Origin: Acinetobacter tjernbergiae DSM 14971 = CIP 107465 | Lineage (GTDB): Bacteria > Pseudomonadota > Gammaproteobacteria > Pseudomonadales > Moraxellaceae | Length of the DNA stretch: 64,000 nucleotides | Reading direction: 5' to 3' | Assembly: GCF_000374425.1 (NCBI RefSeq) | Contig: NZ_KB894375.1 | Coordinates: 1 to 64,000 of the forward strand | In this document: piece after piece, positions 5,606 to 16,033 of the stretch | How positions within the stretch are numbered: the first letter of the stretch is position 1 | Layout: every line of letters starts with the position of its first letter | Notes under the pieces: model-generated | The model's input: only the letters and a program-made list of their open reading frames with translations | The model's database searches: none | What the model was told of the DNA's origin: nothing | Made by a program: the position numbers and the translations under genes

Positions 5606-6571
<966 letters not shown>

Positions 6572-6837
6572 TTATATTAAAACTGTTAAAATTATACGTT
6601 AATCCACATCAAAGTGGGGTGGATAATATTGATAAACCTAATCGAATTGAGCTATATCATGGAGAGCATTTACTGATATTTCATCAATGTTTGCAACAAC
6701 TATGGATGTTAACAACAACAGTAAACAATCGTGCATCTTTTTTGTAAGAACGAGTGCATAATATAAAACTTATTGATCAAGGTCAGTTAGACCTTAATCG
6801 ATACCTACAAATAACAAATTGGGTTACAGGACTGTAT

Positions 6838-9800
6838 ATGGCTGCGGTGTCAAGTGTTTATGCACAACGCTTTTTAATGACATTATTTTTGATTTCTTTT
6901 GGCATTTATCTATTTCTTGCCACAGTAACCTACACACCTTTCGATCCTGGTTGGATGCATATTTCAAGTGATACGCAACAGGTCTCAAATGCAAGTGGTG
7001 TTGCTGGTGCTTGGATTGCAGATTTGTTATTTGGTTTTTTAGGCTGGGCAAGTTTATTTATTCCTCTATTCTTGTTTATGGAAGCGATTCAAGTTTGGTG
7101 GCCTAGAAGTTTTTTAAATCGTCCATTTCGTTATGCAGCTCAGTTTTTCTTGATTCTGTCTATTTCGAGTTTATTGTATTTGCATTGGAATGTCCCTGCG
7201 GATACTTTAGAAAATGCGGCAGGTGGAATCATTGGTTATGAATTAGGTCAGAGCTTGTCTCAACTTTTGACGATTTATGGCGCAACATTTTTTTTACTAT
7301 CCTTTAGTATTTTATTACTGACTTTGGCTTTTGGCATTCAGTGGAACAAAACATGGGCAACATTAAAAAATATGCCAGCCTATTTACAAGATTTATTCTA
7401 TAAAAATATACCGCAACATGAATCTGCATATGATCTGACTGAGCAATTGGCTGTAGCGCAAACGCCTGTTTTAAAGACCAAGTCTTCGCTACCTGCTGAT
7501 GAAACAAAGACTGTAGAAACTGGGGAAATAAGTCAGAAGGTAGAACCGAGCGTTCAGCCTAAATCTACGGCAGTAGATAATGCTCATCATCAACTATTAG
7601 CAGAAAAGTTGTTTGCTGATGTCGTTGCTAAGGAACAGCAAAATGCTCAACAGCAAGACGTATTGTCAGCAGAAGACTTTGAACAAACTTTAAAACATGC
7701 CCATCAACTAGAGGCCGAGAGTCAGCGTTTAGTTCAAACAGGGGAGGTGTGGCGTGCATTACAACACGATGATGCGAGCCATAAACAAGAAATTGATGCG
7801 CTTTTAAGAGCGGCTGATGATGCCGAAACTGTTCCATTTCAATATTCACAATCAGATAGCGCATCTTTAACTCAGCGTTCGAGTCAAAGTCATGTTGATT
7901 GGAATGATGACCAAATCTTTGATGAGTTATTGGCTGCTGTGCCAAATAGTAAAACTGCAACTGATCTGCATAAACCATTTACTCAAGACTTATCATCAAA
8001 TCCCCATACAGAAATAGATGAAATTGAGTTTGAAATAGATACTGAAGTAACCGTTATTGATTCTACTCCACCATCAAATGTCATTCATTCACATGCCACT
8101 GCTGTTAAGGAGATGGGACATGATGATAAACATGCTTTTGCAAGTGATGATTTCGATGATCTTTTAATTGATGATAAAGATGAAAAAACTGAGCTTCAAA
8201 CGACAAGCTATGCTCAGCCTCAGACTTTTGTAAAAGCACCCATTGAAGTTGAAGCGCCTAAAGAAACATTATCAAAAGAAGCATTTATTGAGGCATGGCA
8301 AGAGACTGCGGGTAAAGTTGAAGAAAATTTTGATATTGAAGATGATTTTGACTTAGATGCACCCTTAACAGATTCATTTGGTCGCCCAATGTCTCGTGCA
8401 ATGCAAGTGGCACAAAAACGTCGTGACTTGCCAACTTTACCTGGTTTAGAGTTGTTAGATAAGGTCGATCCGAATAAGAAGGTGAATTTTACTGCTGAGC
8501 AATTAGCGCGATTATCAGAACTTTTAGAAATTAAACTACAAGAATTTAATGTTAAAGCCCAAGTTGTAGAGGCTCAACCTGGTCCAGTGGTGACTCGTTT
8601 TGAACTTGATCTTGCGCCGGGTGTGAAAGCATCTAAAGTCACCAATATTTCGCGTGATTTGGCACGTTCAATGTCGATGGCATCTGTTCGTGTGGTCGAA
8701 GTTATTCCAGGCAAACCTTATATTGGCATTGAAGTTCCGAATAGTAGCCGTGAAATGGTACGCTTGATTGAGTTGTTAAAAACGCCTGCATTTGAAGATC
8801 CTGCGGGCTTGCTCTCGATGGCGATGGGGAAAGACATTTCTGGCAATCCTGTGATTACCGACCTCGGCAAAGCACCGCATATGTTGGTTGCAGGAACAAC
8901 GGGTTCAGGTAAGTCAGTTGCAGTCAACTCAATGATTTTGTCGATGTTATTAAAATACACGCCTGATCAATTACGCTTAATTCTAATTGACCCAAAACAG
9001 CTTGAATTAGCCAACTACAATGATATTCCACATTTATTAACACCTGTTGTTACTGATATGAAAGATGCTGTAAGCGCATTGAATTGGTGTGTCAATGAAA
9101 TGGAGCGTCGTTATAAGCTAATGTCTTTTCTTAAAATTCGTAAGTTAGCAGACTATAACCGTAAAGTGGAAGAAGCAATTGCAAATGGTGACGATCTGAT
9201 TGATCCGACATGGAAAGCCAGTGATTCGGTTGTCGGTGAGCGTGCGCCGCGTTTGGCTCCATTACCATCGATTGTGATCGTTGCCGATGAATTCGCCGAC
9301 ATGATTATGCAGGTCGGTAAAAAAGCAGAAGAAATGATTACACGTTTAGCACAAAAATCACGTGCGGCAGGTATCCATTTACTACTAGCAACCCAACGTC
9401 CATCTGTAGATGTGATTACAGGTTTGATTAAAGCGAATATTCCAACGCGTGTTGCTTTACGTGTAAACAGTAAGATTGATTCACGAACGATCCTCGATGC
9501 AGGCGGGGCAGAAGACTTATTGGGACATGGTGACATGTTATTCTTAGGGCCAGGTAAAATTGAGCCTGAGCGTGTGCATGGTGCTTTTATTAGTGATGAT
9601 GAAGTGAACCGTATTTGTGATGCATGGCGTGAACGTGGTGAACCAGATTATGTTGATGAAATCTTAACGCCATTTGATGAAGAACCAACGTCACGTGGTT
9701 TTGAAGATGGTGATGGTGACCCAAGTCGTGATGCACTTTATGATCAATGTGTTTCTTTTGTTTTAGAAACTCGTAAGGCTTCAACTTCATCGTTACAACG

Positions 9801-12026: not shown

Positions 12027-12299
12027 CTATCGATCTTCAGGTAAATTGATATTCATTTCTAGCATTTCGATATTTGCTTCAGAACGAACTTGCATTTGAA
12101 TATGCTGTTCATCTACACCACGAACATAACGACTGACCACTTGCATGATTTCTTTTTTCATTTGGTCAATTTTGTCTTGGCTTAAACGACGGCCTAAACC
12201 TTGTTCTGATGCAACAATAACTTTCAAGCGATCTTTGGCGGTTTGCGCACTTGATGGTTTTTCATCATTGCTGAATAGTTTACTCCAGAATCCTGCCAT
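12027..12299 (-). CDS. minE: Cell division topological specificity factor MinE
   Basis: MinE stimulates MinD ATPase and drives the pole-to-pole oscillation that keeps FtsZ rings at mid-cell. The 90 residues match the family length. The N-terminal MinD-binding part contains TAKDRLKVIVASEQG, followed by the dimerising topological domain with DQMKKEIMQVVSRYV and the C-terminal strand NIEMLEMNINLPE. It follows minD with only a two-base gap, as part of a minC-minD-minE transcript on the minus strand. There is no oddity; identification is secure. Confidence 0.97.
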   Translation of the reverse strand: MAGFWSKLFSNDEKPSSAQTAKDRLKVIVASEQGLGRRLSQDKIDQMKKEIMQVVSRYVRGVDEQHIQMQVRSEANIEMLEMNINLPEDR

Positions 12300-12301
12300 A
12301 A

Positions 12302-13123
12302 TTACGCTCCAAATAGTCTAGCTAACCAACCTTTTGGCTGTACTGCAATGTGTCGATAAGGACGATCTTCGCCGAGGAAACGAGCAACTAAATCATCATA
12401 GGCTTGCCCAGCTTTAGTTTCATCATAAAGAATTACGGGTTTACCTTCGTTAGATGCTTGTAGTACGCTTGGACACTCAGGAATAACACCCAAAGTCGGC
12501 ACACGTAAAATATCTTTAGAAATATCATCAATCGTTAACATTTCTTGTTTGTCAGCACGTTCAGGGTTGAAACGTGTGATACAGAGATGTTTACGGATAC
12601 GGCCTTCGTTGTGTTCAACTTTTTTAGTTTTACTATCAAGCATACCAATAATACGATCTGAGTCACGCACTGATGAAATCTCAGGGTTTGTCACAATGAT
12701 TGCTTCATCAGCATGATACATTGCCAAGATCGCGCCACGCTCAATCCCCGCAGGTGAATCACAGATAATATAGTCAAACTCTTGAGCAAGCTCATCAATC
12801 ACACGAGCAACGCCTTCATCACTCAAAGCATCTTTATCACGTGTTTGTGATGCAGGGAGAATGTACAAGTTTTCGATTTCTTTATCACGAATCAATGCTT
12901 GTTGTAAGCGAGCTTCATTATTGATGACATTCACAAAGTCATAAACGACACGGCGTTCGCAGCCCATGATCAAATCAAGATTACGTAAACCTACATCGAA
13001 ATCGATCACAACAGTTTTATGACCACGTAGGGCTAAACCTGTTGCAAAAGATGCACTTGTTGTAGTTTTACCTACACCACCTTTGCCTGACGTTACGACA
13101 ACAATTTTGGCCACCGAATCCAC
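12302..13123 (-). CDS. minD: Septum site-determining ATPase MinD
   Basis: MinD is a ParA-type ATPase that binds the membrane in its ATP form, recruits MinC and is released by MinE. The 273-residue product has the deviant Walker A GKGGVGKTTTS near the N-terminus, IDFDVGLRNLDL, and the switch region CDSPAGIE. A C-terminal amphipathic membrane-targeting helix ends GWLARLFGA. It lies between minC and minE on one strand with tight spacing to minE. Length and motifs are standard. Confidence 0.98.
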   Translation of the reverse strand: MDSVAKIVVVTSGKGGVGKTTTSASFATGLALRGHKTVVIDFDVGLRNLDLIMGCERRVVYDFVNVINNEARLQQALIRDKEIENLYILPASQTRDKDALSDEGVARVIDELAQEFDYIICDSPAGIERGAILAMYHADEAIIVTNPEISSVRDSDRIIGMLDSKTKKVEHNEGRIRKHLCITRFNPERADKQEMLTIDDISKDILRVPTLGVIPECPSVLQASNEGKPVILYDETKAGQAYDDLVARFLGEDRPYRHIAVQPKGWLARLFGA

Positions 13124-13179: not shown

Positions 13180-13914
13180 TTAAAACTGTAAGGCTTCAAA
13201 TTCAAGCTCTTGCTTGTTATTTAAATAAATATGTACGGGTTTTTTGATCATATCCTTGGGAATATCATCTGCGACACAATACGTCCCTGCAATAGAGATC
13301 AATTCAGCTTCTAATGAATGACAAAAAACTCGAGCTGAAGTATGTCCGCCTGCACCTGCAATGACTCTACCACGAGCATTGCCATAAATGTGAATATTTC
13401 CAGATGCAATGACTTCAGAACCACTGTTCATACCTGCATTGAGGATAATATCACCTTGATCTTGTACCAAACATTGCCCAGTACGCAAAATCTCATCATG
13501 ATAAGAGGTGATATGTGTGGTTGATGTTTGTTTTTGCGGTGTTTGTATTTCTGGATTTTCTGGTACTTTTTCAGCAGTCGTCTTTTCAGGGGTATGATCA
13601 ACGATCTGTTCTTTCGATGCTTTGATACGTTGCAAAGGTTGGTCAGCAGGTAGGACAGGGAATTGAATGGCACGAGCCTCATCACCCAAGAGACCATCAA
13701 TCACCGCCATTGGTTGTAAACCCAGATCGATGAGGAGCTGAATTAATGCAATCAGCTCTTGTTCAACAGTACTATCAATAATGACTAGAGTTCCAAGATA
13801 AGAACCTTCATTGAGTGTGCTTGAAAGTTGCTGGCGGATTGCATTATGGTCATTTGTGTCGAACGTGAGTCGACTAAAATTTACCATTCTGCCCGTAATC
13901 CGTATATCAGCCAT
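13180..13914 (-). CDS. minC: Septum site-determining protein MinC
   Basis: MinC inhibits FtsZ polymerisation at the poles when carried by MinD. The 244 residues consist of an N-terminal FtsZ-inhibiting domain (about 1-100), a variable Pro/Thr/Gln-rich linker (about 105-140), and a C-terminal beta-helix domain with [19 protein letters not shown] and [17 protein letters not shown], the MinC signature. It is the first gene of the leftward min operon; minD starts 56 bases downstream. A weak hairpin (GCCC/GGGC) lies in that gap but has little chance of stopping transcription. Confidence 0.95.
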
Positions 13915-14032: not shown

Positions 14033-15091
14033 TCATTCTGCTTTTTTATCCAATTGATCATATTCATGCAAGGTTTGCTGCCATTGTTTGATTTTTACTT
14101 GTTTTCGTATGGCTGCAAGGCTCTCAAATACAACTGATTCAACCAATTCTTCTAAGTATTGATTATCAATATTTAGCTCACTGACTTTTTCTGCAATCAA
14201 TTGATAATTTTCATTTGGGTTGTGCGCAGAGCCCGCTGTAAAAGGTTCAATTAAACCGATACTAATATTTTCACCTAGGCGTTGCCCAATAGTTTGAATT
14301 TGTTGTTCAATTCTTCCACCAACAAGAGGAATTAAACGTAATAACTGGGTTAGTTCAGGCGTATCTTCAATGGCTTGATTGACAATAATGCCAACTTTTT
14401 TAGTAATCATAGGTTGTTGTTCTTGCAACGTTTTTGCTAATGATTCTTGTAGTAAAGAAGATAGCGCTACGGTAAACAACTGACGATGATGGTCAACGAG
14501 ATCATGAATAATTTTTTTATGACTTGAACTGGTTTCAAGTTCTTGTCGAACGCCATCTATGACCGAAATGACAACGCGATCAGAGAGTTCTTCCATGATA
14601 ACACTGTAGTAAAACGCTGCTTTAATACGAACGTTGTCAGGTACAACCTTGTAACCAAGTTCATGCAGGCGATATGCAATAATGCCTGCGCGGAATAAAC
14701 GAAGAAAACGTAGATGGGGAATAATGGCTAAGATTTCATACCAATGAATAAATGGGAAAAACCACCAACGAGTGTGGTGTTTATTTACAATTGCAATTGT
14801 CCAGCGGACGACAAGCTCAGTGATTAAAAAAATAATAAACCATGCTTCTGTCGTAATCACCCAAGGGTGTAAGTAACTACGATAAAACTCAAGCACATTG
14901 GGTAAATGAATTGTATTAAAAAACCATTCGCCAATATTACTCATTAAAAAAAAGTTCATGCCTAAGCAGAACAAATTAAAAACAATAATAAACACCATGA
15001 AAATGTCATAAACAAGAAACAGTTTAAAAAACTTACTGTTTGGATTTACAAGGCTATATTTAGAGTTTTGTTTTGAGTCCTGCTGAGTCAT
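14033..15091 (-). CDS. Voltage-sensor-like membrane protein lacking a pore
   Basis: A 352-residue membrane protein. Four hydrophobic segments at about 23-48, 78-102, 110-125 and 127-143 match the order of an ion-channel voltage sensor. The second carries an acidic residue (ITELVVRW), the third reads HWYEILAIIPH, and the fourth has Arg every third residue (LRFLRLFRAG; R128, R131, R134). No pore helix or GYG-type filter follows; instead about 200 soluble, amphipathic-helical residues do. I chose ATG 15091 (AGGA upstream) over a TTG four codons earlier. It ends a two-gene block with the acyltransferase at 15116. Relation to voltage sensors is my reading of motifs; function unknown. Confidence 0.6.
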   Translation of the reverse strand: MTQQDSKQNSKYSLVNPNSKFFKLFLVYDIFMVFIIVFNLFCLGMNFFLMSNIGEWFFNTIHLPNVLEFYRSYLHPWVITTEAWFIIFLITELVVRWTIAIVNKHHTRWWFFPFIHWYEILAIIPHLRFLRLFRAGIIAYRLHELGYKVVPDNVRIKAAFYYSVIMEELSDRVVISVIDGVRQELETSSSHKKIIHDLVDHHRQLFTVALSSLLQESLAKTLQEQQPMITKKVGIIVNQAIEDTPELTQLLRLIPLVGGRIEQQIQTIGQRLGENISIGLIEPFTAGSAHNPNENYQLIAEKVSELNIDNQYLEELVESVVFESLAAIRKQVKIKQWQQTLHEYDQLDKKAE

Positions 15092-15115
15092 GTGGCGAGT
15101 CAATTCCTAATGAGA

Positions 15116-16033
15116 CTATTGATAATATTTAGATTTCATTTGTGAAATCAATTGGTCTTTTTCTGTCCAGATTTGATCGACCCATTGCTGAAAACGCTCG
15201 CGGTAAATCGGATCATCTTCATAATTGCCATGAAGCAACCAATCTGGAATATCAATCTTACGCAAATCTACAGCAATACGTGAGACATCACCTAACCAAA
15301 AATCACCATAATCTGGCGCACCGTCTGGATAAACAATGGTCATATCGACTAAGGCATCGATTTTATCGCCTAAAATATTTAAAGCCAATGCTAAACCACC
15401 GGCTTTTGGTTTGAGTAGATTCTGATAAGGCGATTGCTGCTCAGCATGTTTTTCGGTAGTAAAACGTGTTCCTTCGAGATAATTAAGTAAGGTAAAAGGC
15501 TGACTTAATAATTGTTCACAGGCTTTACGTGCTTCTAGCATATCACGGTGTTTCAGCTCAGGATTTTTTGCCACTTGTGCTTTGCTATGGCGTTTCATCA
15601 TTGGGAAGCCCAAAATCTTAAATGCTTGTCCAACAAAAGGAATAAAGATGAGTTCCCATTTGGTAAAGAAACGAGTGAGCGGCATACGAGTCAATCCAAA
15701 ATATTGATTGACAGTTGTGTCCACCCAACTTTGATGATTACAAATCATCATATAACGACCGTCTAAATTGAGGTCAAGTGCTTTATCAATGCTTATATCC
15801 CATTTTAGATTGGGAAGAACTTTTTCAATCAACTGGTTGTTAATACCAATCCAACTATTGGCCAATTGAATATTGGTTTCATCTATTTTTTTTAGATTTT
15901 TGAATAGCTTGGTGATACCTAATGTCAGGATAGGGGGCCCATGAAAAAAAGTGTTTCCAGTAATCACTGAACCAACCGTAAGTCCTTTACCAAGCTTTTG
16001 CAGTAAGGATGCTTTTTTATTTGTGGTAGACAT
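15116..16033 (-). CDS. PlsC-type 1-acylglycerol-3-phosphate acyltransferase family protein (YihG-like)
   Basis: A 305-residue membrane-associated acyltransferase that probably transfers a fatty acyl chain to a lysophospholipid. The catalytic HX4D motif is at residues 100-105 (NHQSWVD) and the glycerol-phosphate-binding EGTR motif at 187-190 (NYLEGTRFT). A hydrophobic segment near residues 18-45 is the likely membrane anchor. The overall layout resembles Escherichia coli YihG rather than housekeeping PlsC, which is shorter. It lies immediately before the voltage-sensor-like gene, with a 24-base gap, suggesting co-transcription. Exact substrate is not readable. Confidence 0.85.
   Translation of the reverse strand: MSTTNKKASLLQKLGKGLTVGSVITGNTFFHGPPILTLGITKLFKNLKKIDETNIQLANSWIGINNQLIEKVLPNLKWDISIDKALDLNLDGRYMMICNHQSWVDTTVNQYFGLTRMPLTRFFTKWELIFIPFVGQAFKILGFPMMKRHSKAQVAKNPELKHRDMLEARKACEQLLSQPFTLLNYLEGTRFTTEKHAEQQSPYQNLLKPKAGGLALALNILGDKIDALVDMTIVYPDGAPDYGDFWLGDVSRIAVDLRKIDIPDWLLHGNYEDDPIYRERFQQWVDQIWTEKDQLISQMKSKYYQ

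Follow-up and report, generated by a model that had tools for sequence, protein, structure and literature searches.

Organisation of the locus

The window, by which is meant the whole 64,000-nucleotide stretch of DNA analysed here, carries on its minus strand an open reading frame that starts with an ATG at 15091, runs for 352 codons and ends with a stop codon at 14033-14035; a TTG at 15103 provides an alternative start. A sequence-only reading had assigned a voltage-sensor protein to these coordinates, which stand with the correction that the gene lies on the minus strand. The three stretches picked out in that reading, ITELVVRW in S2, an S3 ending in AIIP and LRFLRLFR in S4, were all found in the ORF. 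In the window yihG lies 24 bp upstream of the gene, and the two are probably co-transcribed; minC and the MinD-like and MinE-like ORFs follow downstream (Table 1).

Table 1. Features of the locus and of the encoded protein, in positions of the window
Feature	Position	Strand	Details
Pore-less voltage-sensor protein	14033..15091	minus	352 aa
S1 helix, residues 20-50	14942..15034	minus	model helix H20-50; column counts
S2 helix, residues 64-102	14786..14902	minus	model helix H64-102; E82, residue 89, E92, R96
S3 helix, residues 109-121, WWFFPFIHWYEIL	14729..14767	minus	model helices H109-115 and H117-121; E/D119
S4 helix, about residues 126-144	14660..14716	minus	model helix H130-144; R128, R131, R134, R141
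C-terminal soluble helical domain, residues 151-352	14036..14641	minus	family-specific
YihG-type 1-acylglycerol-3-phosphate acyltransferase	15116..16033	minus	NF058536, 306.8 bits (cut-off 260)
MinC	13180..13914	minus	next gene downstream; PF03775, E 3.5e-26
MinD-like ORF	12302-13123		after minC
MinE-like ORF	12027-12299		after the MinD-like ORF

Conservation of the voltage-sensor signature

Residue counts are based on 139 distinct sequences (87 of the genus, 52 of other origin), the window's own protein being entered once; an earlier, diverse set of 24 members included sequences with as little as 22% identity to the window protein. R128 is retained in 138 of the 139 sequences and R131 and R134 in all of them, with the three-residue spacing present throughout (139/139), as the description of a voltage-sensor-like S1-S4 with an arginine at each third S4 position had it. 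Orthologues lacking this periodicity were looked for as a refutation and none was found. The acidic residues are similarly constant; E/D92 in S2 and E/D119 in S3 are acidic in every sequence (139/139 each), and residue 82 is E or D in 131/139. By column counts, D29, N39 and N/D46 are the conserved positions of S1. The spacing of the S2, S3 and S4 positions corresponds to that of E226, F233, E236 and D259 of Kv1.2 together with its S4 arginines. One position counts against the voltage-sensor reading: residue 89, three before E92, is Leu and not an aromatic plug in the window protein and in the entire genus (Leu in 96/139, comprising all 87 genus rows and 9 others; aromatic in 43/139).

After the triad, residue 137 is I, S, V or A, residue 140 is mostly Tyr, and R141 is Arg in 118 sequences and Asn in 18. 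S3 and S4 are short. Just 2 or 4 residues separate the proline of S3 from the leading arginine of S4, so the protein lacks the outer “paddle” tip known from animal channels. In S2, R96 is replaced by Gly or Gln in 16 of the 139 homologs (for example L027, L040 and L211); these homologs, Halomonas and its relatives among them, retain the S4 triad and the S2 and S3 acids.

These features bear on an alternative in which the protein is a retired voltage sensor, its fold and buried salt bridges kept for stability alone, and acts as an anchor or scaffold for the C-terminal domain. The restriction to three regular S4 charges, the short S3-S4 and the hydrophobic residue or Ser at the fourth charge position speak for retirement, as do the replacements of R141 and R96. 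Pure anchors, however, tend to lose S4-type charges, and both key counter-charges are retained here. Furthermore, R131 and R134 are the sole invariant arginines among the 15 in the window protein, with R128 varying once, whereas most of the others drift (the exceptions are R172, which is Arg in 137/139, and R108, kept in 130 of 140 rows). On this evidence retirement of the sensor seems unlikely, if still worth serious consideration.

Absence of a pore

The K+ filter motif, searched for as T-x-G-[YFL]-G with limited x, was found in none of the 139 homologs. This pattern is blind to a Na+ or Ca2+ filter, so the claim that no pore of any type is present rests on hydropathy. In the hydropathy set of 140 rows (139 distinct sequences, with the window's in twice, after 139 of 140 unique homolog stretches had been kept) no row has a 19-residue window above 1.6 beyond residue 150, the maximum being 1.52. 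Both results agree with the earlier statement that the pore helix and selectivity filter are missing, there being no transmembrane-grade segment past S4. Within the sensor itself the S1 and S2 peaks are strong and the S3/S4 peak is weak.

Relationship to bacterial K+ channels

Judged from profile comparisons, the S1-S4 domain (VSD) and the corresponding domain of short Kv-type K+ channels of bacteria are homologues. When the VSD part was compared by HHalign with an alignment of K+ channels, the score was 63.3 (E 1.7e-9) over 59 columns spanning S2-S4. Since this channel set had been found via a bridging relative, the comparison was repeated with K+ channels picked by PF00520, and a score of 57.7 (E 3e-8) over 101 columns, S1-S4, was obtained; this second set holds 22 of 30 loci, the other 8 having no ORF with the K+ filter pattern, and some may be Na+ channels. 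The best of 27 control families scored 18.8, a soft control because these were neighbour genes of the family, and the representative has at least two predicted transmembrane segments in just 6 of the 27. The VSD-only profile also matches two channels bearing TVGYGD directly (E 1.1e-5 and 3.3e-4). In each of two genomes the profile of the family matched a second gene besides its own member (E 5e-5 and 1e-4), and both of these genes are K+ channels with TVGYGD filters; one of them, L142, matches Ion_trans at E 6.9e-22 and Ion_trans_2 at E 8.6e-16. The Kv-type channels (PF00520 with Ion_trans_2; for example L142, L149 and L262) and the pore-less family have in common an S3 end of the form W-x-D-x-x-x-x-I-P leading into an R-x-x-R S4, as well as the counter-charges. 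They differ in that the pore-less family is without S5, pore helix, filter and S6 and has a soluble domain of its own instead.

The search with PF00520 that had been proposed earlier did not recognise the window protein; among the 24 diverse members it matched 4 whole proteins (best E 0.0014) and 5 VSD segments (best E 1.2e-4), Ion_trans being the sole Pfam family to match more than 2 of the 24 VSD segments. Direct searches of the window protein against Pfam, NCBIfam and PDB sequences gave noise only, and a profile search of the PDB likewise gave noise, the best PDB hits falling on the helical C-terminal part. In a tree of the VSD region (69 rows, with 23 of 24 loci entered out of 30 searched) the 24 pore-less proteins fall on one side of a branch with 97/97 support, which is consistent with the pore having been lost once; the tree carries a long-branch warning, and it is this split and not the deep order that is supported.

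A conductance of protons or cations through the VSD itself, a bacterial counterpart of Hv1 in which the soluble domain would serve assembly, is an alternative that fits the missing separate pore, the acidic residues in S1 and S2 and the three S4 arginines, a number also reported for Hv1 (PMC8926398). One homolog, L198 (G077:C101, about 6025-7008, minus strand), has the sole His at the first S4 arginine among the 139 sequences (FHSLRILR), a substitution reported to yield a proton shuttle in other VSDs (PMC5065317). The S4 tryptophan described as totally conserved in Hv1 (PMC10377628) is nonetheless missing from the family. Moreover, the relatives found by sequence are K+ channels, while Hv1 was judged by description and not by sequence, and the ~200-residue C-terminal domain and bacterial hosts are further differences. 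At residue 130, which we take to be the equivalent of that tryptophan (R-x-W-R), Leu is found in 136 and Phe in 3 of the 139 sequences. The selectivity aspartate of Hv1 lies in mid S1 (D112 in human); in the family the conserved D29 and N/D46 stand on either side of mid S1, and 8/139 sequences have Asp at residue 39, any equivalence with the Hv1 residue being tentative. Finally, leakage of protons would come at the expense of the cell's proton-motive force. We regard such a conductance as improbable.

The homology of the VSDs, together with the presence of an Ion_trans channel in the window's own genome (G000:C25:18304-18966), could also point to an accessory K+-channel subunit akin to a silent voltage-sensor subunit. 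This role is disfavoured because three genomes that carry the pore-less gene (G001, G014 and G018) give no PF00520 match at E <= 0.05, and we hold it to be highly improbable.

Predicted structure

AlphaFold models were built from alignments of Acinetobacter and its near relatives, the 80 named loci being thinned to 59 at 95% identity. Both models are of middling quality; the full-length one reached pLDDT 69.6 and pTM 0.37, and that of the VSD alone, residues 16-152, pLDDT 73.3 and pTM 0.59. With the VSD-only model all 13 matches listed by Foldseek are NavAb or a NavAb chimera, none of them significant (best E 0.77), and all 28 rows listed by VIA are NavAb or CavAb (two are titled just “HypoPP mutant”), the best being NavAb with Z 7.4 and an rmsd of 4.9 over 99 residues. 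NavAb and CavAb, which bear a pore, are thus the closest solved folds among the matches listed for this model, by a weak match. The full model gave 42 Foldseek matches (best E 1.4) with NavAb first, and also helical toxins, apolipoproteins and others. In VIA, 47 of the 50 rows listed for it are voltage-gated channels, most at an rmsd of about 9-34 Å; its residues 21-148 align to HCN1 with Z 7.6 and an rmsd of 3.0 over 103 residues.

Since values of Z below 8 can be reached by unrelated helical bundles, the fold match is taken as no more than supportive. In the comparison with solved sensors that the sequence-only reading had called for, nearly all the matches of the predicted folds are to channel VSDs, and these matches are weak. 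Chemoreceptors and helical toxins among the matches of the full model were put aside as apparently reflecting generic long helices.

The C-terminal domain

The last ~200 residues are joined directly after S4 and form long helices in the model. This part of the original description, a helical soluble domain of about 200 residues in place of a pore, was upheld, with long helices predicted for residues 151-352 and no convincing known family. Its conserved residues are Y161, E167, E168, S170, D171, R172, P255, G258 and W337. Among the 25 of 53 Pfam families listed, any one family matches the C-terminal domain of at most 3 of the 24 members, and phosphatase families are absent from the listed matches. 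As the only Cys of the window protein is residue 42, the soluble part has no Cx5R active site. A profile of the domain searched against 249 genomes found members of the family only, plus two marginal open frames; at E 0.001 it did not match a shorter relative in genome G160 (see below). As far as the libraries searched go, the domain appears to be new.

The two marginal frames, L252 (G420:C56) and L253 (G443:C2), are each of 878 residues and weakly like the C-terminal domain (E 5.9e-4 and 7.5e-4, respectively). The part of L252 examined has helix-like segments and one transmembrane-like segment.

Distribution and constraint

In the genus the gene is present as one copy in 59 of 60 genomes, the exception being a genome that is 65% complete. 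Across the order it is found, again as one copy each, in 66 of 293 genomes and 28 of 118 genera, and in a sample of the phylum in 20 of 398 genomes, all 20 of the same class and one of them carrying the shorter G160 relative. A contig scan matched 594 stretches, of which 557 were relatives; the named loci are the best 80 of these, and the named relatives in Acinetobacter are up to 92% identical to the window protein. The copy in Halomonas sp. PA16-9 is 95% identical to the G132 protein. Viral contigs gave 38 pattern matches with no relative among them. The A. baumannii orthologue (CP040048.1, 404189-405235; L210) is annotated as “preprotein translocase subunit SecA” or as a hypothetical protein; the SecA identity was rejected, since neither Pfam nor NCBIfam gave the window protein a match to SecA.

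Selection was estimated from 42 pairs with dS of 0.2-1.5, drawn from 60 sequences. For the VSD, regional dN divided by the dS of the whole gene has a median of 0.054, and for the C-terminal domain 0.059, values that indicate strong purifying selection on both domains alike. That the C-terminal domain is constrained as much as the VSD is a further point in keeping with an anchoring role for a retired sensor.

Gene neighbourhood

The order yihG-VSD-minC-minD is found in all 80 named loci (79 from Acinetobacter and 1 from a Moraxellaceae MAG; the best 80 of 557 relatives), and by extrapolation yihG lies 23-41 bp from the VSD gene in at least 65 of the 80. The gene was located in 36 further neighbourhoods, in all 36 by tblastn and in 32 by ORF picking; L200 proved to be the same contig as L087 (both 80,908 bases) and was counted once. 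Of 4 other neighbourhoods from the Moraxellaceae, L174, L176 and L201 have the same order, and the fourth, L175, shows no yihG. Outside the Moraxellaceae, yihG and minC/minD were found within ~6 kb either side in 0 of 31 neighbourhoods. The linkage to the acyltransferase, whose constancy had been proposed as a check, is therefore a property of the Moraxellaceae among the neighbourhoods sampled. Since the linkage is missing from 31/31 neighbourhoods elsewhere, control of the acyltransferase is not a family-wide function, and the broader proposal that the protein couples potential to lipid metabolism through this enzyme is not sustained.

The adjacency to minCDE deserves equal notice with the acyltransferase link. 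In E. coli both the membrane binding and the oscillation of MinD are described as dependent on membrane potential (PMC3793866, citing Strahl and Hamoen 2010). Within the Moraxellaceae the protein might accordingly be a regulator of its neighbours, passing membrane potential to acyl-chain remodelling by YihG or to Min placement; the constant gene order and short spacing, as well as the behaviour of MinD, would suit such a role, but the 0/31 outside the family limits it to a lineage-specific use at most. As the explanation of the protein we think this distinctly improbable. An acyltransferase described in PMC13345540 (locus tag ACX60_00365) was considered as a YihG-type enzyme and ruled out, being of the AT3 superfamily.

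No partner gene is conserved across lineages in the neighbourhoods surveyed. The recurrent neighbours outside the Moraxellaceae, named by eye, are lineage-specific: thioesterases, exonuclease III, acyl-CoA dehydrogenase/amidase and YaeQ-like genes. In four f36 (Halomonadaceae-like) genomes (L181, L203, L204 and L209) a gene resembling acyl-CoA thioesterases is found 35-60 bp upstream, on the same strand. Taken with yihG in the Moraxellaceae, the thioesterase-like gene, itself named by eye, is a hint that more than one lineage has acyl-lipid neighbours.

Discussion

What can be read from the sequences is a set of hydrophobic helices, counter-charges in S2 and S3, three regularly spaced S4 arginines, the lack of a pore and the strong conservation of both domains. 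The explanation that we consider best is a sensor of membrane potential that relays the movement of S4 to the cytoplasmic domain, and we give it an even chance of being right. In such a protein S4 would move with the membrane potential, its movement would pass via the helix from about residue 152, with its YYxxxxEELSDR motif, into the soluble domain, and that domain would act either on a partner or on the membrane's inner surface. The analogy is with the animal voltage-sensing phosphatases, in which S4 drives a phosphatase. In the Moraxellaceae, where the gene lies between yihG and minCDE, control of membrane lipids or of Min and division would be a plausible local output and not one of the whole family. 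The fuller history is put forward more tentatively, at somewhat below an even chance: a Kv-type sensor may have lost its pore once in the Gammaproteobacteria and gained a new helical effector, so that a VSD that is not a channel reads the potential, in the Moraxellaceae beside lipid acylation and Min.

Although it is a pore-less VSD protein, the family is distinct from Hv1 and from the voltage-sensing phosphatases. With the latter (Ci-VSP) it shares the layout of a VSD followed by a cytoplasmic effector domain; it differs in the lack of a phosphatase domain among the listed matches and of a Cx5R site in the soluble part. TMEM266 is a voltage-sensing protein not known as a channel; it is an animal protein, likened here by description and not by sequence. 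It is named in a reference of PMC13095418. According to a 2023 review, every prokaryotic VSD known to date comes with a pore domain (PMC10377628); that review and PMC13095418 both say that neither bacteria nor archaea have been found to carry Hv1-type channels. A VSD motif search that included bacteria is reported in PMC4878010, with its hit lists placed in the supplements. In the open-licence PMC literature no description of a prokaryotic pore-less VSD was found. If the reading of the family as a potential sensor is true, it would shift where the pore-less VSD architecture is thought to have arisen, provide a small system, in bacteria, for studying how S4 works mechanically, and open to experiment the question of how bacteria convert membrane potential into a cellular response.

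A second, shorter form of pore-less protein was also observed. The G160 relative (L144:3709-4494, minus strand) is a pore-less VSD protein of 261 aa whose profile match runs from S3 into the early C-terminal domain. Used as a query against 299 genomes it found matches in 27 of them; most of these are genuine K+ channels or belong to the main family, and no second close copy was seen. Its gene adjoins one for a patatin/NTE-type phospholipase with a cyclic-nucleotide-binding domain (L144:1925-3712).
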